Of a stretch of 64,000 nt of DNA, positions 416 through 56,806 are shown in pieces. The translations under genes and the position numbers were made by a program. How positions within the stretch are numbered: the first letter of the stretch is position 1; each line of letters starts with the position of its first letter. The notes beneath the pieces were generated by a model. It ran no database searches. It saw only the letters and a program-made list of their open reading frames with translations, and was not told the origin of the DNA. The DNA comes from Utricularia gibba. Its lineage: Eukaryota; Streptophyta; Magnoliopsida; Lamiales; Lentibulariaceae. Location: assembly GCA_002189035.1 (NCBI GenBank), contig CM007992.1, positions 620,001 through 684,000 on the forward strand, written 5' to 3'.

Positions 416-1646
416 ATTAGAGAGTTGTTATGCAGAATTACTGCATTGGATGAATAGTTGTAGTTTATAATGTTTATGATGTAGTAGGAGTTGTTGTATA
501 GAATTTCATATAAATTAATATTTTTAAGAAATATAAAAGGTTTTTATTCCACAAAGTCTGGCTTGAAGAGAAAATTATAAATTTGAAAATACGACATAAA
601 TAAATACGGTGAGGGTTGGACACTCATACTCGTCAATGCATTGGCTATGTATCCCATGCCACATATAGCGTTGTGGGTGCATGTAGTGGCTTCAATGCTT
701 AGCGCCCTACTCTAATTCTTAGGGCTTTACATTACGCCCTTGTCCATGGCTGCGGTCGACTCCAGGGAAGAAAAATAGCCTACAAAACAATTACAACCAA
801 TGAAACTCAGTCAACCACAACCCGGGGGGTTACTATCTTCTCCTGGGATATGCCTCTATTTGGTATATTCATCTTTCAAAAAGTAGAAATTACGATTTCT
901 ATACACTTACAAAATAAAAATAGAGAAATTTCTCGTATTTGATATACTAATTAGAAGTAGAAATTGTTTTCACATACATCCAGAATGAGTTATTTAAGAT
1001 GAGCACCAAAAATTTATTTAGTTTCATTACCCATTCAAATGAAATGAATCGCTTGATAAATATTTTATGCATATGTTATGTAAACATAATTTACTGAAGT
1101 AATTTTATTTAATTTTTAAAGATTATAATTTTTTACCGTTTTACAGTAAAATCAAAAATTCAAATTTTGTGTTTGATTTCAAAAATTATTGAATTTCTAT
1201 TTCATTCACTAAATAATTGAATAATTATTTTTTATTTAATTTAAAATACATTTATATTATAAAATTAAATTATATGATATATTTTTATTTTATTAAATTT
1301 TATAATAATTTATATTAAACTGATTCTATTCATACAATCTCAATCTTAATTCTATTCTAATAATTTGAATCACATATTCAAAATACACATTAATTTACCT
1401 GTTTTTTTCTCAAAGCTTTTAAATCATTTAAAACCACAATTTACCCCATTTTATTTACTTACAAGTTACAACAAACAAGGTAGTAGTGAAGGAAGGATTG
1501 ATTAATTTGAAATGAATGATTGATTAATGCAGAGGAAGTCAATAATTGTCCAACCCATGACTAGGTAGACCTGCTGCATTATGCAAATTGGCATTCATTA
1601 CTAAGACAAAATTTGAACCACGTCCCATTTAATGACGACCGGGTGG

Positions 1647-1666
1647 CCCTAACCCTAACCCTAACC
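1647..1666. repeat. Short CCCTAA tandem repeat
   Basis: Three consecutive CCCTAA units followed by CC. The period is six, matching TTAGGG rather than the usual plant heptamer TTTAGGG. It is too short to be a functional telomere and is best seen as a small interstitial repeat or telo-box-like site. Confidence 0.7.
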
Positions 1667-2984
1667 ATCCACAACTAATCCCTCCTTTCATGCTCTTTCT
1701 TTTTTTTTTCTATCAAACATAATATTATTTTAAATATACGAGTTTTAGTTCTCATTTTTTAAATATATATTTGTAAAATTTATGTATCCAATATAGTTTC
1801 AATTATATCATATGATACGTATTTATCGTATCGAAAATGGAGGGTATAATTTGGTATGCGATGTATGGTTCCAATGTGCATCTACGGGGACCTTATAATA
1901 TGAAACGTATGGTTAGTGGATCAATAATGGCATTGAATTAGGGACTATTATTTGAAATAAATCAACAGCTGGCTCGCTCCTAAGTCGAGTTTACTTCATA
2001 AGAAAATAATAATAATATTTTATTATTATTATTCTGTGTTGTTGGAATAACCAGATGTACTTGCAAGTATTAATTGGTTGTCCTTTTATATTACATATAT
2101 ATTTATCATAAATTATTTTTATATTATAATAAATGGTACCCTAAGTCGGCCGGCCTACCCTATCGTCCCCCCTCCCCACCCCCCCCCATCATATAAAAGT
2201 TTTTAAAATACTAGATATTGATAGTTTTTTAAATTAATATTAAGATAATTTTTTTTCAAGTTTATCGAAAACTCATATCCAACCCATCATTTTACTATTG
2301 TGTTTGTGGCTCATGAACTATCCGAAAACCCGAAATGATCTATCCGCATCACGAAAAATGCTTGAAGTGTATAGTATCATAAGATCATGTTAGTTTAGGG
2401 TATAGTTTCGATGAATACAGGTGCACCCTGTAACATCTATGTATCATACAATGTATACCACTTATTGACTTGAGCTTATTATTGGTGTAGTGATTTATGG
2501 GTTTTCACCTAAAAAAACACATGAAATGATTCCAATGTGCTCCCAAAGTTGGTGCCTTTATTGCATGGGCATCAATGTGTCTACTCATTTGAATTGGTTT
2601 TGGGTCAACTTGTTCACTATGGCTAAATTTCAAGTAAACTTTACTCAAATGCAAATTCATAAAACCTTAATATGAAAATTGTAAAACCCTAAACTCTACA
2701 CCCTAAATAGGTGCATGAGGTTAATTTGGGATTTGTGGGTGAAATTGAAAAGGAATGTGAAAGTTGAACTCTTTGGATTAGGCTTTCATTTCAAAAAATT
2801 CTGGTGTCCATAAGGTCATTAATTAATAATAAACTTAGGACCATATAAACCCAGAGCTAGTCTCATTTGGTCAAAAGGGACCCTTCAATTGTGTCTTCCT
2901 CTCATCTTCTTCTTCTTCTTCTTGGTGGTGTCTTTTCTGGTTTATTCCGTTGCTTTTGTCTGAATCCAATCCAAAATCTCTGCC

Positions 2985-3884
2985 ATGAACTTGTTGGAAA
3001 CCGGCGGAGGGGAAGGTCCGGCCGCCGCCGACGACAAGGCGAAAGAGCACATGTTTGATAAAGTGGTGACGCCGAGCGACGTCGGGAAGCTCAACCGTTT
3101 GGTGATTCCTAAACAGTACGCGGAAAAGTATTTTCCTTTGGATTCGAGCACGAACGAGAAGGGGCTTCTTCTCAGCTTCGAAGATCGGAACGGGAAGCCA
3201 TGGCATTTCCGGTACTCCTACTGGAACAGCAGCCAGAGCTACGTGATGACGAAGGGGTGGAGCAGGTTCGTGAAGGAGAAGAAGCTGGACGCCGGCGACA
3301 TTGTTTCGTTTCATCGCGGAGTCGGGGTTTTGAAGGATCGTCTGTTCATTGACTGGCGGCGCCGCCTCGAGATTCCGCCGCCGATGACTCACCATTTCTC
3401 CTTCCTCCATCGCGCCGCCCATTCTCACGTCCACCCCTGGAGCCCCCTTCTGCTGGAGCCCTCGCCCCGATCCCACTTCAAGCACCTTTACTACAACCCG
3501 TGTTTATTCGACGGTAATTTTACTTCAAAACCTTCTCTTTAACCTAAGAAAAGAAAAATGAATCATCCTCTTTCTCCGCCCTCCAGGTTACAGCAATGCT
3601 GTTGCAAAGGCGAATCCCAACCGGCGGCGCCGAAAGAAACGGTGGTCCAATCGGCTCCGATGGGCAACGCAAATGCCGCCGTCAAGAGGCTGCGGCTCTT
3701 CGGAGTAACGATGGATTGCGCAAAATCGGAGGAATGCGGTGGGATATTCGTCCTTTCTGGAGGCACCCCCTCCGCCTCCACCCCCTCCGACGATCGACAC
3801 ATTCAACCGAACCGGCAACCCGACACAGACGCAAAGGGCAAGAGCTGCTCCACAACATCCATGTCACTGGACTTGGAGATATGA
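2985..3884 (+). CDS. B3 domain transcription factor, NGATHA type
   Basis: The product is a plant-specific B3 DNA-binding factor of the RAV/NGATHA branch, which acts in the nucleus on leaf and carpel development. The B3 domain fills about residues 23-126: it begins [20 protein letters not shown], has the [12 protein letters not shown] core and ends RLFIDWRRR. Downstream lies the RLFGV repression motif at about 3687-3701, followed by a Ser/Thr-rich tail ending LDLEI. Exon 1 runs from 2985 to a strong donor after 3513 (ACG/GTAATT). The obvious acceptor is before 3587, but that join puts the RLFGV segment one base out of frame. Either a weaker acceptor before 3610 is used, which restores the frame, or one base is missing between 3589 and about 3690. 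The start is the first ATG with a clear path into the B3 domain. NGATHA and NGAL members cannot be separated with certainty. Confidence 0.85.
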
Positions 3885-6800
3885 GAAGGAAGCTAGAGCT
3901 ACGACACGCCCGCCGCACTAAACCTCTGCTGCGTCTGGTCCGGTAGACAGATTCTTTGAAAACGAAGATGGGAGGGATGCATCCATTTCTGTGCACATTA
4001 TTTTATGCAAAATAATTGCTTGTCTGTAAGAAGAAGGAAGTTGTGCTTTCCAGTCTGACAACTGGAATTCCTCGTAGATGGTGACAGGATCATTTGGGTT
4101 GTTGTACATCCGAAGCAGCAGGACCATGGCGATTCCAAGGTCAAATCCCCACTCTTATAGCTAATTAACTGTAATTTATTGCTGATTAATGACCCTTTAT
4201 AGTGTTGTGAGACGCCCCATGTCCTCCAAAACCCTAAAACTGAGAAAAAAAACACACACCTGATACACAGCTTTAACAGAAGGAAATCTGAAATGCTTCC
4301 GCAGCTGACATGGGAGAAGGAAAGGAGACGAAGCAATGGGCTGCCTAATGCCTCAAGGCCCAGCCCAAGTCATAAATGAAGCCCACATCGCTCCTTAGAA
4401 AAAGCGGATCCAATGGGCCGACATACTCCTTTTATTATTATTAAGATTTACCCAAAATAGTATATTCAATTAAAATAATAATAATTATAATACACTATTT
4501 ACCCAATTTGTTGATTTAATTTTTGTGAATTCTAATCTTTATCTGTTTTGTATTAAAATTAGAAATTCTGATTTTGAAATTAATTTTAAAAATTAATAAA
4601 TATCTTGAATATATGTTTCAATTAAATAATACATTAATTAGAAAATACTATACATTTTATATACTTTCAAAATATATACAACATCACATTAACTTCTATA
4701 ATAATTTAATCTATTGAATTTTACAATATGTAATTTAAAATACTAAAGTCTATAATATAATTTTATGCTGTTTCATACAATAGTTTTACAATTTCAAAAT
4801 TGATTCTATTTTACATAATACGAAGCACGATTTCAAACTACAGAACAAGTAATATTTTTTATTTTTTTTTTAGTTGAAAATTTTCTTTTCGATACCAAAT
4901 ATTTCTTTCAAAAGAATTCTTATAAAAATGGCATTAGAGAGGGGTGTCTGGTCTCCACCTATGGTAGCCTCCAGTCGCAGTCGTGCCACTAACTCGGGGG
5001 GCGTATGGGACTCGTGGCGATGTGTCCGCCTTTTGACCGGGTCGCAACGCGACACGGCACGTGTCCGCAATAATTCCAGCCCCTCTTTGTTGTTGGATTG
5101 TGTTTGACATGAGGTGCATGTTCCTCCTTATCTCGGCACATGCTTCAACACTTCCTTACCAACATTCCAGAGGTTCACACTTGGGAACCGGAGTCACATC
5201 CAAAATCAGATCCGAGGGTAGTTCCGTCTTTTACATGTGTTTTTTTGGAGTTATTTACAAAATTTTCATTATACCATATCTATCACAAAGAGGTGAAGGA
5301 TCTTCTAAATGATACCAGTTTGAAGCTTCATCTATTAGACCATTTTTGTTAGATGATTATAAATTTATATGGTTTAGATTAAACTAATTTTCAGAAGATG
5401 GTTTATTCTGAATCATGTGTTTGATAGATAGATCACAATTATATGCAATTAGTAACTTTATATGTTTGTTAGAAATGTTTAACATATTATGAAGATTTTG
5501 AGATATAATTTTATATTAAAAGTCTAATTCAGCAGATTTGGGATTTGGAAACCTTATAGATACGGAAATCTCTTGTGATGTTGACATCAATTTTCATCAA
5601 AATACCATAATTTGGACTCACTCATCGTAGATTTGTGAAAACTTGATACACAATGTAGAAATTGATAAAAATACAAAAATATATACACTAAATTTGCCTC
5701 TTTATGAAAGATTGCATATTAGCTCATAAAAAACTTAACAAAATCCATCTTTACATATAGGTTTTATTAAATCCTGACATATAGGTTTGTAAGAGAATAC
5801 TATAATCTCATGTGTTTAGCTAAACCAACATAATAAACACAAGCATCAGTTTTTACCAATGGAATGAATGAGTTATATCTCACTAACAGGCGGTTGTCTC
5901 AGGGTATCAGTTTGATGTTTGAGCTCCTTAAAAATCCCAAATGGGATAAGTGCTGTGCTGATTAGGGTATCGGGCCCTCATGCCAAACTGGTATTATTTC
6001 TCGTTAGAATACAAAAAATGAAAGTGAACAGAGCAGGCAGCTTTATGGGTGTCCTTGTCGGGTAGCAACTGGTTGTACTTGTCGTTCCATATGGAGGTGG
6101 GCGCCAGCCACTTTGGCATCATGACACGGGAGCCAACCCTAGGACCACAGCCACTGACCTGGGGCTGCTCGCTGCTCATCTATTGGTAAACCTCAAAGAT
6201 TCACATCTTTCTGCTCATACGGATCCCTCCAGACCCAAACTTCAATCAGTAATCTGAGTGAAAAAAACAAAGTTTTCCGGTTAAGAAAGAGGGGTTGGAT
6301 CATTTGAGAAATGCTGAAAGATCAGCTTCAATTCTTCTTATCAACTGTGCTGGTAGTTACACAAAGCATCTGCTACTTCCACAGAGCAGTTATACTCAAA
6401 AGTAGTGCACAAACAGCCCCCTAACTTTTATTGATGGTGAGCATGATTGTGGTGATCAAAAGGGACTCTTGTGGATTTTGGGTGAAGGGATTTGTCAGAT
6501 TAAGGAAGTTTAGCATCAAAGTTTTTAGGGTTGCATGGCGTGGATAGCTGATCTTCAAAATCAGTAAACTATGTCATGTCCATAAAATACGTTGCTTGCT
6601 TATGGATGATCCTCTGTTAAACATACTTTTGAATAAGGGTTTTCAAGCTGTATACCGATCTCTGCTTTTAAGCGTCATCTGGTTTGGAAGTTTAATGCTG
6701 ATGAAGTGTCGTGAGAATGATATAAAGCTCAGAATGCATTTAGAATCACATGCAGCGAGTGGTGAAGGGTATGGGAACTTGTGAGTAGTCGAGAACTGTG

Positions 6801-7043
6801 CTCCACTCAAATAATACTTTATTGTTTCTTCTTCTTCTGCATCTGGACATTATAGACAATTCAGCCACAGGGACACATACGGGTGCGTGTGATAGAAATC
6901 CTGTAATAAAAAAATGAGTGGTGTGGTGGTGCAGGGTGCAGGGCTGATAAGAGATAAGCCCGCATTTACTCTTATCGTCACATGCAGATTCTGGATTCTT
7001 CCCACTCTGGTTGATTTATTGTACACTAGGTGCTTTTTTTTTT
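3885..7043. other. Intergenic region, no supported gene
   Basis: The first few hundred bases should be the 3' end of the B3 transcript. From 4430 to 4870 the DNA is almost pure A/T. A more balanced stretch at 4930-5230 has only short frames. At 5994-6179 on the minus strand a 61-codon frame is open and reasonably codon-like, but it matches no family I recognise and no splice-linked partner is visible. The part near 7000 should belong to the MIR156 promoter. Confidence 0.6.
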
Positions 7044-7275
7044 CTATATAAGGGGCCATGTTCTTCACACCAACACTTGCAAGATCTCTCCCATCTTTCT
7101 TAATGTAACCGTACAGAAGAAAGATCCTTTTATGGAAAATGTTTGCATTCTCTCTTCAGTTTTACTGTGTCTGGGTGTACTTTTTTTTCTTATCCATTTA
7201 AAGGGCCATTTTGTTCACTTGCAAGATCGGATCGTCCCTAATGTAACAGTTGAAAAGCAGACCTTTTTTACCGGA
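7030..7275 (+). repeat. Tandem duplication upstream of MIR156
   Basis: Two diverged direct copies lie about 147-150 bp apart, near 7030-7140 and 7176-7275. Shared blocks in the same order are a T-rich run, a TATAAGGGGCCAT or TTTAAAGGGCCAT segment, a TTCAC/GTTCAC block, TTGCAAGATC, and TAATGTAACNGT. The first copy has an intact TATA-like box; in the second the same position reads ATTTAAAG. The duplication ends before the miRNA hairpin, so it duplicates promoter or leader sequence and not the miRNA. Confidence 0.75.
7044..7053 (+). promoter_or_regulatory. Probable TATA box of MIR156
   Basis: CTATATAAGG lies about 300 bp upstream of the mature miR156 sequence. It is the best TATA match in the area and would place a transcription start near 7075. 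It sits in the first of two tandem copies. Confidence 0.55.
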
Positions 7276-7329
7276 ATGATTCTGAATCCAGGGATTCTTT
7301 ACACATTTAGGGTTTCTTTGTGCAGATCT

Positions 7330-7436
7330 AATTTGGGGTTGAGGTGACAGAAGAGAGTGAGCACAAATGGTGTTTTCTTGCACGTTTGGTGCTTGAAGCT
7401 ATGTGTGCTTACTCTCTATCTGTCACCCACTACTCT
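7330..7436 (+). ncRNA. MIR156: MIR156 precursor hairpin
   Basis: The sequence TGACAGAAGAGAGTGAGCAC at 7345-7364 is exactly the conserved 20-nt mature miR156. The 3' arm at 7404-7424 (GTGCTTACTC...TCTGTCA) pairs with it, with one G:U pair and one bulged A, and pairing continues outside the duplex through GGTTGAGG and CCCAC. The loop of about 40 nt is typical of short MIR156 foldbacks. miR156 directs cleavage and translational repression of SPL transcription factor mRNAs and controls juvenile-to-adult phase change; no SPL gene is present in the window. The precursor has no protein-coding role. The gene is expected to be RNA polymerase II transcribed from the TATA-containing region about 300 bp upstream. 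Confidence 0.96.
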
Positions 7437-9398
7437 CTGGTACGGCTGTTTTTCACCTGTGGAATACCGGAATTAACTTACTTGTAGATCTGCGGTCTGG
7501 GTTTGGTTTCACAGGATGAAAGATGGCTTCTTGTAGCGTGACTGCTACAAGATATTCAGATTTGCGGGTGTTGGGCGTTCTAGCTTCATACTTTGTTGTG
7601 AGATCTCGGAGTTTAACCTTCATCAAAACTGATTTCTTGCTTGCTTTAACACAAGATCAAATATGTGTTTGTTATATGAACAATATTTACCTCAGGATCT
7701 TGAAATTTCTGGGATCTGCAGACTGCTTTTGGTGGTTTCATCCCTTCTCCAGTCTTGCAAGTTGCCCACCAACCGCACTTCTCTCTCGTGACTCCCACAC
7801 TACAAAACTCCACAGGTCCATTTTCTGCTCTCTGCTCTCTTTTGTTAGCCGCTACTCATTCTATCTTGCTGCTCCTTACAGCATCCATTGTTCGATGCAG
7901 CAAAATCAAGGGATCTGTGTTCCAAGATCAGGCTCTCGCCCAATGCAACACATTGACTCATCTGCACCCACTTTTTGTGGGTGGATTCGCACTTTTTCCT
8001 GCTACATCTGAAAGTTGATCGGGATGTGAATGACTTTTACGAAAGACCCACACCACTCACTAATCCCATCCTCAATTCCAAACACAAACCCCAAAACCCC
8101 AGATTGAGGCCAGGTTCATGAAGCGTATGCCCTGGTAGGGTTTGTCTGATCACTCACTGTCACTGTGCAGTGCGCACTCATCCCCCTCATGTAATTATGG
8201 AATTCTACTCTGCAGTGAGTGCTGAAAAAGCAGCAAAATTTCATATTTTTCTCATTGTTTGGGCTAGGGTTTGGCTAAAACACATGCCCTTTTTTTACTT
8301 GAAATGAAATATGTTTAAATATATGAATCATATTAAAAAAGATTTAATTCAATTAATTACTAGTGATTCACAAACTTAACGACGAAATTTATTGTTCTAA
8401 TATTTCTGAGTGCTGATGATAACCAGACGACGTCGCGCTGATAACTGTAATCGCTACACAAGTGTGTCATTATTATTATAATAAAAAAACCATAAATTCG
8501 AGAAACACACATGCAGCAAAAGTCAAAATGATTTGGGGTATCGAAGAGAGTGGGGTCCACCATGATGTGGATAATTATTTTTAATTTTTTTTATATAATA
8601 TATACGTTTTTATTATTTTTTTACACGATTCATTTGGAAAGAAAGAGAATCTTACCGCGTTCAACGATGGCGGCTCGTTGTCAGATTCATACGACGACGT
8701 TTCACGCGGTCTTGTCTTTATTACCATTGAGAAATGGTAAGCCTTCGAAAGTTAAAAAAAAACCATGGTAATTAATTTGGTCACGCATTCATCTCTTGCA
8801 CTTCTAACACATAGATATTACTTAGTTTATTTTTATACAAAAAATACGAAAAATTAAAAAATAATACAAAATCATATCATAATTTGAATAATAATTATAC
8901 TAATTTTATAACATAAATCACAATAATTATACTAATTATAATTTTATAATAATTATACTAATTTAATCATAGATTTCGATTAAATATTTATAATTTTTTT
9001 CATATATTTTAATTAAATCCTTTGAAACCTCGAAATTGAAGAAAAATTCAGAAACGCGGTGGCATTGTCGTGGTTTCTTTGGCTTGGTCTTGGTCAAAGG
9101 GAGAGACCCCACGGCGACCGCGGTGCACCGCTGGAACAGCGGCTTCCGGTGGCAAATTTGGTTTCGATTCACACGGTTGTTTTCCTTTTCTTCATCCCCC
9201 TGTACACAAAGGACCTGTTAATACAGGTGTTGCTATTTATTGCTGAAGCTGACCAAGAATTTTTTCAAATCTTTGTTCAAGGTTGACATTTGTGCACCGC
9301 TTTCCTTTCACACATTCCGTCGAACACTTTGACTGGATAGTGGGTATTTAAGACTGGAGGATCTGATTGTTGTGATTGAATTTCGTGTGAGTGTTGAG
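7437..9398. other. Region downstream of MIR156 and upstream of the ALP gene
   Basis: The primary miR156 transcript probably continues into this stretch. A plus-strand frame at 7523-8011 is open for 162 codons but shows no recognisable domain and overlaps a second frame; I do not call it. A perfect 8-bp stem with a 6-nt loop lies at 7530-7551. An AT-rich tract with three copies of a 16-mer is at 8890-8963. The leader of the ALP gene should begin near 9280-9398. Confidence 0.55.
8890..8963. repeat. Three spaced copies of an AT-rich 16-mer
   Basis: AATAATTATACTAATT occurs at 8890-8905, 8922-8937 and 8948-8963, with spacings of 32 and 26 bp. It looks like a small degenerate minisatellite in the spacer before the ALP gene. 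No function is implied. Confidence 0.6.
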
Positions 9399-10836
9399 AT
9401 GAATTACAGTAAGAGGCGGAGGACCGAGGGCGAGGAAGATGGGTTTTTCGTTGAGGAGGGAGTGGGGAAGATGGGTTTAGGTGGGATCGTATCTCCTCTG
9501 TTGTTTCTTGAAGAAGAGGAAAAAGAGGGGGTTGAAGAAGCAGTGGAGGCACGCAGAGAGGAGATGCTTGAATTCCAGGAGAATCAGGGGAGGCGATTGC
9601 GAGCTATGATGGATTTCTATTCTGGGACTCAAGATTTCTACGAGGGTGATGTCGCGAGGAGAAGAAAGGTATCCGCGAATGGTTGTGCTGCTGGGATTGG
9701 AATAGCCTCTGGCTATGACGATGCAACCGCCGCTGCCGCCGGAAATGACGGAACTCCGACAGTGGCGCCGCAGCGGCGTTTGTGGGTCAAAAACAGGTCT
9801 AAAGATTGGTGGGATCAATGTAACAGTCCTGATTTTCCAGAGGAGGATTTCAGAAAGGCTTTCAGAATGGGGAAAGAAACATTCGACTTGATCTGCAAGG
9901 AGCTCACCTCCGTTATAGCCAAGGAAAACACTACGTTGCGAGACGCGGTTCCGGTCCGGCAACGGGTAGCCGTCTGCCTATGGCGGCTGGCTACCGGTGA
10001 GCCGCTCCGTATGGTGTCGAAGAAGTTTGGGTTAGGGATATCAACTTGCCATAAGCTCGTCCTCGAGGTCTGCTCTGCAATCAACGCAGTCTTGATGCCG
10101 AAGTATCTCCGATGGCCGGAAGAGGAGACTCTGAGGAAGATCACAGAGGAGTTCGAATCCACTTCAGGGATTCCTAACGTAGTCGGATCAATGTACACAA
10201 CCCATATACCCATAATCGCTCCAAAGATCAATGTGGCAGCCTATTTCAACAGAAGGCACACGGAAAGAAACCAGAAGACATCCTACTCCATTACCCTGCA
10301 AGGCGTCGTCGATCACAGAGGAGTCTTCACAGACGTCTGCATCGGCTACCCCGGCTCGATGCCGGACGATAAGGTCCTGGAAAACTCCACACTCTTCCAC
10401 AGAGCAAATGCTGGATTCTACCAGGGAGTGTGGATTGTGGGAACCTCAGGGCACCCCCTGATGGACTGGGTTCTCCCCCGTACACGCAGTCTAACCTGAC
10501 ATGGACCCAACACGCCTTCAACGAACGCATCGGGGAGATCCGCCGGACCGCAAAGGATTCTTTTTCGCGGCTAAAAGGGCGGTGGGGTGCCTCCAGAAGA
10601 GAACCGAAGTGAAGCTCCAGGACTTGCCGGTGGTTCTCGGAGCATGCTGTGTGCTGCACAACATCTGCGAGATGAGAAACGAGCGCCTGGAGCCCGAGCA
10701 CGAGTTCGAAATCTTTGACGATGAGATGGTTCCGGAGATCAGTCTGCGATCGCTGAATGCAGTGAGAGCCAGGGATGCCATTGCTCACAATCTGCTGCAT
10801 CATAACCTCGCAGGGGCATCGTTTCTTCTTCATTAG
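9399..10836 (+). CDS. ALP1-like protein, domesticated Harbinger transposase
   Basis: This intronless gene encodes a DDE_Tnp_4 (PIF/Harbinger transposase-derived) protein of about 480 residues, most like ANTAGONIST OF LHP1 (ALP1/ALP2). Those proteins associate with Polycomb repressive complex 2 in Arabidopsis. An acidic N-terminal region with Lys/Arg patches precedes the helix-turn-helix-like part (PVRQRVAVCLWRLATGEPL) and the DDE region. The first catalytic Asp is replaced: the segment reads VGSMYTTHIPIIAPK where active transposases have DGTH. The second Asp region (GVFTDVCIGYPGS) and the FNERIGEI segment with the third acidic residue remain. The C-terminus KLQDLPVVLGACCVLHNICE is strongly conserved. 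The frame breaks twice by one base, at C5 (10475-10479) and G4 (10584-10587); one extra C and one extra G restore the conserved protein. No terminal inverted repeats flank the gene. The start is the ATG at 9399. Confidence 0.88.
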
Positions 10837-11550
10837 GCGTACGGAATCATAGACTTGGTTTCTTTTAGTTTTTCTGGTACTTTTCCTTGACAATTGTAAA
10901 AATAATACTAATAACTATTTAAATTCTTAATTTTTTTTATCAGTTTTTTATTTTAAAAAATAAATAATTAGATATATTTAATTTCAAACATCGGGAAATA
11001 GTTCATTTTTATATAATATTTTAAAATATTAAATAAATTAATTATACATTCATATTAATTTCTTTTGATTTATCGTATTTGTATCAATCAATAAAATTTT
11101 ATTTTTTAAATAATTCTAATAATAAGCATTCAATTTATTTTGAATATTTACCGTTCATTTAGTTTTAAATAATAAAAGTGAAGCATATAATATACAAGAT
11201 ATTTTTTTATTAGATTACTTGTGTAATATTATTTAAATTATTTTTTTATGTGAAATTTTGAAATTGATAGTTATTTTTTTGATTATTTTATGGGAGATTA
11301 ATTTTGATTTTACCGTCTTAATAAATAGTGGAATGGAACGGTTAACTCCACGGTGGTCCTGCGGTTCGTGGAGTCCACGTCATCAAGTTACTTCGTAAAA
11401 AAGGAAAAGGAGGAGTCCACATCATCACGTGGTGTAGCAACACCGGCCTGCAGGTGAACCCTTCGTGGCGAAGGACTCATACGACGCCGTATGGGGACTC
11501 CTGACCAAATCTGACCCCAATAAATACATATTCACACAATTTCAGGCAGG
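10837..11550. other. Intergenic spacer and NDR promoter
   Basis: Very AT-rich DNA (10900-11320) with no open frame is followed by a more balanced stretch leading to the TATA box at 11552. ACGTGG/CCACGT cores occur near 11378 and 11424 and could be G-box-like sites. I see no other gene. Confidence 0.6.
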
Positions 11551-11551
11551 G

Positions 11552-11561
11552 CTATATAAAT
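11552..11561 (+). promoter_or_regulatory. Probable TATA box of the NDR kinase gene
   Basis: CTATATAAAT lies about 99 bp upstream of the ATG at 11651 and would place the start of transcription near 11585, giving a leader of about 65 nt. Confidence 0.6.
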
Positions 11562-11650
11562 GCGAGCAACCGTTTTTGATACTTCACAGTTCCAGCGCAC
11601 CAGGATTTCGCGGAAATCCAGAGGAAAAGGAGAGAGCCGGAACAGGAGAG

Positions 11651-15185
<3,535 letters not shown>

Positions 15186-15620
15186 TAGCCCTACTCGAAA
15201 TCCGTACCTCGTATAGAGTACCTACCCACCCCATCAGGCTGTGCACACCTATCTATTATTTGTTGGTGGCTCGCCTCCATTGATGTCTGGGAGAGTGAAG
15301 CAGATTCGCCTCACTCACCTTTACATTACCATTTACGAAACAGTTACCTCTTTTTTGTGCTGACTTTCAAAGGCACCATTGGAGTAGCCAGCCCCTGCTC
15401 TCCTCTCCCTCCAAGCAGCAGCGTACGTTAATTCTCTGGCTCTCTGTCTATGAAACTTGCTTAATATTGATTAGATTGCAAAGGTTATTTGTTTGTTTGT
15501 TTTTGTAGGGAGGGGAGGAGATGGCATTGGCCTAGAACACCACCGTTATTTAACAAACGAGCGCGGGACGCGTTTCATTTAACTAGAACAGCCAAAACAG
15601 GAGTGAGCAGTAGATAGATT
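15186..15620. other. Convergent 3' spacer (NDR / small HSP)
   Basis: The stop codons of the NDR kinase (+) and the small heat shock gene (-) face each other across 435 bp. This space should hold both 3' untranslated regions. No coding frame or repeat of note is seen. Confidence 0.6.
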
Positions 15621-16103
15621 TTAGGCAATCTTGACTTCGATCGTCTTCGGCTTCTTCGGCTGCGGCGGCGGCAGCTTCTCCACGGTGACCGTCAGCACTC
15701 CGTCCTGACACACGGCCGATATCTTCTCCGTGTCCGCATTCTCCGGCAACGTGAACTTCCTGAGGAGCTTCCCCATCCGCCTCTCCATCCTGACATACTT
15801 GGCCCCCTCCTTGGCCTCCTCCCGCTTCCTCTCGCCGCTGATCACCAGCACATTGTCGTCCTCGACCTGCACCTTGATGTCGCCCGACTTCAACCCCGGC
15901 ATGTCGATCACGAAGACGTAGGAGTTGGGGTACTCCTCCACGTCCGCCGGAGTCGCCGCCATGGCCCTCGCGTCGCGGACGTATGCTCTCGTTGGCTGGC
16001 AGCCGGACTTGCCGTTGCCGCCGCCTTCGGATTCATCGCCGTCGAGGATGTTGTGGAGCGTGTGGAAGATGGGTGAGTCGAAACCCAGGAATCTGATGTC
16101 CAT
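15621..16103 (-). CDS. Cytosolic class II small heat shock protein
   Basis: An intronless gene for a 160-residue ATP-independent chaperone that holds unfolding proteins during heat stress. The N-terminal arm has [13 protein letters not shown], followed by a short Gly-rich linker and the class II signature [20 protein letters not shown]. The alpha-crystallin domain spans about residues 45-150 ([20 protein letters not shown], the VISGER strand, and the C-terminal [13 protein letters not shown]). The tail [11 protein letters not shown] contains the I-x-V/I motif used in oligomer assembly. Length and sequence match HSP17-class II proteins closely. A perfect heat shock element and a TATA box lie upstream. 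The gene is divergent from the beta-glucosidase gene. Confidence 0.96.
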
Positions 16104-28777: not shown

Positions 28778-29979
28778 AAGTGCAGCCTGACAATGGAAAA
28801 AGAAAGAGAAGAGAGAGGCGCCTGGGTCTGGGTGTGGAGGAGGAAGGAAGGAGGGCGTGTCAGCTGTAGAAATTTATGAGGACGAGGTGTGTCTGTTTGT
28901 GTGTGTAATAAAAGCATTCACTCACTCACCTGTTTCTGTATTCATTACCATTATTATTTATATCACCAGAACCAGAAACAAGAACAAGAGTGGGGAGTCA
29001 ATGGAGAGTGGAGAAGAAGTGTTTTTGTATTGGGGAGAGGAGACACGACAGAGAGGCGAGAGGGCCATGCAGATGCACCTCACCAAACCTTCGCTGGAGC
29101 ATTTAATGGCGCTGCTGCTTTTTTCACCAAACGCTTGACTTCAAGGGGATAAATTCCCTCAAAAGAATCCCAGTGAAAAGATCAGGGAGCCCCATCCCAT
29201 CCCATATGCAACTCTTCACACACAGTCTTCTGATACTTGGATATGTAACAATGTGAATTCACGTTTATACAGAGACAAAGATTAGGGTTTGTCCTAAGCA
29301 AGATGGTGGGCTTAGGGCGCAGGCATCATCAGTCTGCGAGATGCCGAATGCAGGGTCTCAGACTATGTTCTTCATCAATGATCATTCTTAGTTAAAAATT
29401 TTTAATTTAAGATGAGTTTTATAAAATTTTTCAAACCTATTTTTATTTTAGAAAAAGTAAAAATAATTTTAATCAAGAATACCACTTATTTTTACTTCTA
29501 ATTTTACTAAAAATACTTTTGGTATTACATTTCAAAAATAAAGATAAATTACTTTTGTATACTATTTCTATTTTTTAACATAAATTCATAAAAAAAATTT
29601 TTTCTAGAATATCCATTTTTACTTCTATTTTTATAAATTATTTCTATTTTTACTTTTTATTTTTTCAAAAATAAAAATAATTTCTAAAAATTTTCTAGAG
29701 CACACATTTAATGAATGGGAGATCGTCCATTTTGTAAATGACCACCCCCATACGAGTATATTACAAATCTGGATATTGTATTTTGAATGTGTAAATAAAA
29801 TGATATTATTATATATAAAATTTTGATAATAATATATGAGAAAAAAGGATAAATGACTACTCGACGAGGTTGAAATATCCGCAATGATGAGTGGAATCTT
29901 TTAAAAATATTATCTTTTTTCAATAGAATTTTTAAAATAACTGACCCAGCCCACAAAAACTGATTGTCGCAACCCACGA
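28778..29979. other. Intergenic region upstream of the SHINE-type gene
   Basis: The first 300-400 bp should be promoter and leader of the minus-strand ERF gene. From 29390 to 29700 the sequence is rich in TTTTTATTTTT-like tracts. No coding frame with recognisable content is seen on either strand. Confidence 0.6.
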
Positions 29980-56092: not shown

Positions 56093-56806
56093 AGGAGAAA
56101 CTAGATGAGGAGGTGATGACACACTGCTCTTGCACTTGTAGAGATTCATTCTGAGTGACTCATAAAAGAGCTCTGGTTGTATGCTGTGAGCTCAGTGTAG
56201 TAACTGGTACAAGAAAATGTAAGAACGTGCGATTTTTTTTAATAATATTATTATTATTTTGTGAAAATATAACAATATAATTTATTGAAAAATATATTTT
56301 TTTAATGAAACGATTGTTTCAAAAGTGTAAAACTATATTTATTATTCTTTTTATATGATTTTACATTTTTTTTAAAATAGTACCTTTAGTACTCATTATT
56401 TGGTTAAAATAATGTTTTTTATATTAAATATATTTAATTTGAGATATAGAGTAAAATTAATTTTTAATATTTTTAATTTGTATATAATTAATCTCAATTA
56501 TTTATATATTCTATATTAATTGTTTTTATTATTTGAAAATCAATTATGATTAATTTATATTATTTTATTATATAGTAAAATTGATTCCTAAATTAACTTG
56601 ATATAATAAATTTCTAATATTTTATTAAAATGATGAAATTAGTTTTCATAATTAAATCTATTTATATAAAGAGTGGGATCATTCATCCAATTATTTCATT
56701 ATTTAATAAATCATAATTAAAAAAATAAAAATTCCTTCATCAATCACGCTTTCTCTGATTTTTATTGATTTCAGGTTTGGGGTTGAGAGCGAGGAGTGGA
56801 GCAAGA
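56093..56806. other. AT-rich intergenic spacer
   Basis: Mostly A/T with no gene. The first 150 bp should be the 3' untranslated region of the DXS gene, and the last 60 bp the leader of QCR7. Short direct repeats of TTTAAT/AATTTA type occur throughout. Confidence 0.65.

Follow-up and report, generated by a model that had tools for sequence, protein, structure and literature searches.

The window, by which we mean the whole analyzed stretch of 64,000 nucleotides (C4:620001-684000), contains a conventional plant MIR156 gene with a short tandem repeat directly in front of its hairpin. miR156 is a timing microRNA of plants and a regulator of phase change; members of the MIR156 family (RF00073) produce a small RNA that has SPL genes as its targets. 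In agreement with the earlier note, which had claimed an exact 20-nt miR156 in a hairpin, the mature sequence TGACAGAAGAGAGTGAGCAC is present as an exact string match on the 5' arm of a stable hairpin (-55.7 kcal/mol, z -8.3), which the Rfam model matches with 76.9 bits against a curated cut-off of 62 (Table 1).

Just upstream of this hairpin, a segment of ~105 bp occurs twice. Local alignment of 6990-7159 with 7140-7320 gives a score of 45, above the highest value of 37 reached by 2000 dinucleotide shuffles; under looser scoring the same repeat again reaches 45, against a shuffle maximum of 31.5. In the gapped alignment of copy 1 with copy 2, 71 positions are identical and 18 are mismatched, with 19 gap letters. 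The claim of a tandem duplication of about 100 bp beside the MIR156 promoter is thereby upheld. Its proposed period of 147-150 bp applies at the start of the repeat, where the copies are offset by 150 bp at the TATA end, and fails farther on: losses of 8 and 4 bp from copy 2 bring the offset down to 142 bp at CACTTGCAAGATC and then to 138 bp at the far end. Of 749 adjacent block pairs scanned across the window, four scored at least 45, this repeat included; another of the four (8756-9095) is visibly AT-rich simple sequence. Adjacent repeats at 29411-29750 and 56356-56695 outscore the MIR156 module repeat (61 and 55, respectively).

Table 1. Features of the MIR156 locus, in window coordinates
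Feature	Position	Strand	Evidence
Module copy 1: TATA box, GGGCCAT block, predicted start at ~7075, first ~70 nt of leader	7040..7145	+	Repeat and paralogue alignments; similar module upstream of L008
TATA box TATATAA, 30 nt before the first A (7075) of the CACTTGCAAG motif	7045..7051	+	Sequence
Module copy 2: TTTAAA (7197-7202) in place of the TATA box, spacer 8 bp shorter, leader part kept	7185..7285	+	Repeat alignment
Stretch after copy 2, AGGGATTC...ATTTAGGGTTTCTTTGTGCAGATCTAATTT; resembles L012	7290..7334	+	Sliding identity with sister locus 0.77-0.90; L012 match, 0/1000 shuffles
MIR156 precursor hairpin	7344..7426	+	Rfam RF00073, 76.9 bits; RNA fold z -8.3
Mature miR156, 20 nt	7345..7364	+	Exact string match

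A likely promoter in copy 1

From its sequence, the module looks like a core promoter joined to the first ~70 nt of the transcript. We infer from the position of the TATA box in copy 1 that the CACTTGCAAG motif beyond it is a plausible transcription start; a TATA-like motif located 23-28 nt ahead of the start is present in 83% of maize pri-miRNAs (PMC2773440). As a relative of the module also precedes a further MIR156-like locus of the same genome, L008, and more weakly another, L012, copy 1 probably represents the ancestral promoter and the beginning of the leader. Upstream of the promoter, RY-type CATGCA motifs are found at 6749-6754 and 6981-6986, the second of which reads CACGCA in the sister gene described below. 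A 9-bp hairpin in copy 1 (ATCTTTCTT/AAGAAAGAT) was set aside, since by eye it is not conserved in the other copies.

A leader-encoded miPEP was likewise discarded. In both copies of the window gene, a TAA stop comes directly after the first ATG downstream of the predicted start, and the sister gene gives MQQ from copy 1 and a frame of 33 codons from copy 2, so that no peptide is shared. The start-stop minimal frame itself, ATG-TAA, lies at 7103-7108 and 7241-7246 and is absent from the sister gene.

A sister locus in a duplicated block

The genome searched (G000) comprises 100 Mb in 516 contigs and may be incomplete. A search of it with 7026-7290 returned the window itself only, this search skipping common words and missing even the copy on contig C413; a longer query of 651 bp also recovered the C413 locus, together with three matches confined to the hairpin. 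The C413 locus (C413:4270236-4270326, L006/L002) is a sister of the window gene, with which it aligns from ~6628 to 7658. The two genes have the same mature miR156 and 69% identity over the promoter-to-hairpin region, and in the sister both modules are again present, in unchanged order and separated by a spacer that can be aligned; its own copies, B1 and B2, align with a score of 53 (shuffle maximum 34). It differs from the window gene in having only TATTAAA in copy 1, in the absence of the entire TATA/GGGCCAT block from copy 2, and in the longer loop of its hairpin.

The two genes lie in collinear, inverted blocks of ~15 and ~32 kb (window 1.1-16.1 kb, 1100-16100; C413 4,247-4,279 kb, 4247000-4279200), which have in common a B3-domain gene, a DDE_Tnp_4 gene, a kinase, and an HSP20 gene. 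Their pooled Ks is ~0.58 by a simple Nei-Gojobori count, with exons ranging from 0.12 to 0.78. This arrangement suggests a segmental or whole-genome duplication. The DDE_Tnp_4 (Harbinger-type nuclease) frame at 9333-10496 on the forward strand of the window, which is retained in both blocks with ~72% protein identity and a Ka of 0.13 against a Ks of 0.68, resembles a domesticated transposase gene.

Copy 2 as a probable relic

The observation that the first copy has a TATA box and the second has lost it stands, TATATAA in the one facing TTTAAA in the other. Comparison of the sister genes shows that, over the 500 bp preceding the hairpin, conservation is lowest in the TATA part of copy 2, with 0.20-0.37 identity per 30 nt, and that the leader part of copy 2 is its better conserved piece, with 0.67-0.70 identity at 7215-7259. 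The latter part (CTTGCAAG...TTTCTTAATGTAACAGTA) is common to all four copies and could be a functional element present in duplicate, as a binding site for a transcription factor or as an active part of the RNA, with two copies serving dosage; however, its identity is similar to that of the surrounding upstream region (0.6-0.8), with no special constraint evident, and we regard this explanation as unlikely. A duplicated control element within the leader is possible, and there is a small chance that both sister genes have retained the second module, since before their separation, as a duplicated leader or regulatory element adjusting the dosage or start choice of pri-miR156.

The earlier note had further proposed that the duplication could create alternative starts. 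Copy 2 would in that case be a live promoter with TTTAAA as a weak TATA box, yielding a shorter pri-miR156 that begins ~128 nt upstream of the miRNA. In the window gene, copy 2 indeed keeps TTTAAA and the GGGCCAT block at 7197-7209, the CACTTGCAAG start motif is intact there, and a precedent exists in maize pri-miR172c, which has several starts, two of them with TATA-like motifs (PMC2773440). Against this, the spacer is 8 bp shorter, placing TTTAAA 20 nt from the start motif rather than the 30 nt seen in copy 1, the sister's copy 2 is without the TATA/GGGCCAT block, and the TATA part is precisely the stretch that has diverged most. A second core promoter with a properly spaced TATA box is therefore lacking, and an active start at copy 2 is improbable. 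As the sister's copy 2 has no TATA block at all, a recognizable second promoter is kept in neither gene. On the same three grounds of spacing, absence from the sister, and low conservation, copy 2 is probably a relic promoter inside the pri-miR156 leader that has lost the ability to start transcription.

History of the duplication

We sought the module upstream of the 13 other MIR156-like loci of the same genome, and among these it is clear only for L008 and weak for L012; the upstream region of L014 scores 42 against a shuffle maximum of 42. The module at L008 is of the copy 1 type, TATA box included (score 52, 0 of 1000 shuffles): a TCTATA-type TATA box leads into a C-rich start region, after which comes a TTTCTT...TGTAA.AGT leader. 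L012 has in common with it the TATA part and, weakly, the remainder, in a match that does not favor copy 1 over copy 2. The TCTATA-type boxes stand at -268 in L008, -260 in L012, and -300 in the window gene. L008 prefers a leader in which copy 1 is joined to the stretch after copy 2 (z 8.9-9.0) over the intact two-copy leader (z 5.7-6.0), as expected if a single module were ancestral. The TATA-to-miRNA distance is ~260-268 in L008 and L012 versus 256-300 in the two-copy genes, so that the extra module is invisible as added leader length. Owing to this similarity and to the indecisive match of L012, the evidence for a polarity from one module to two is no more than modest. Clustered MIR156-like hairpins occur at C1:7678231-7685713, C505:2898433-2912192, and C402:1101872-1102180; the last cluster has two hairpins ~140 bp apart, and the hairpins of the C505 cluster are below the Rfam cut-off.

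Because both copies recur at the sister locus in the same order and with an alignable spacer, a single tandem duplication most simply predates the split of the two loci. Trees of the four short copies neither support nor reject this order (AU p of 0.14, 0.14, and 0.86, with no topology rejected). The best-scoring tree groups neither the orthologous nor the within-locus copies, which would be compatible with independent origins of the modules at each locus or with homogenization by gene conversion, but the common order, end point, and alignable spacer make either very improbable.

We thus favor, with a probability of about 0.72, an old tandem duplication followed by a duplication of the locus, with copy 2 now a part of the pri-miR156 leader that is no longer a promoter. 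The core promoter and the first part of the MIR156 transcript would have been duplicated once in tandem, and the segment with both modules would later have been duplicated to give the loci on C4 and C413. Transcription would begin at copy 1, with the predicted start at ~7075, and run through copy 2 as part of the 5' leader, with no promoter work left to it; the hairpin would then be processed to miR156 as usual.

Comparison with other timing microRNA genes

These results point out the likely promoter of a MIR156 gene and show that a pair of duplicated MIR156 loci can retain short promoter-leader duplications even as the second core promoter decays. Among the titles and abstracts surveyed, we found no description of a duplicated MIR156 promoter. 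If copy 2 did affect expression, it would offer a handle on the timing of phase change. The maize miR156b/c cluster and pri-miR172c (PMC2773440) are comparable in that timing microRNA genes there, too, show duplication or more than one start. In maize, however, the hairpins are duplicated (miR156b/c) or the starts were shown by RACE (PMC2773440); in the window gene only promoter-leader DNA is duplicated, and the start is predicted from sequence. With the MIR156 family at large, the window gene shares the mature sequence, a hairpin above the RF00073 cut-off, and a TATA-type promoter a few hundred bases upstream; it differs in its decayed tandem copy of the promoter-leader module.
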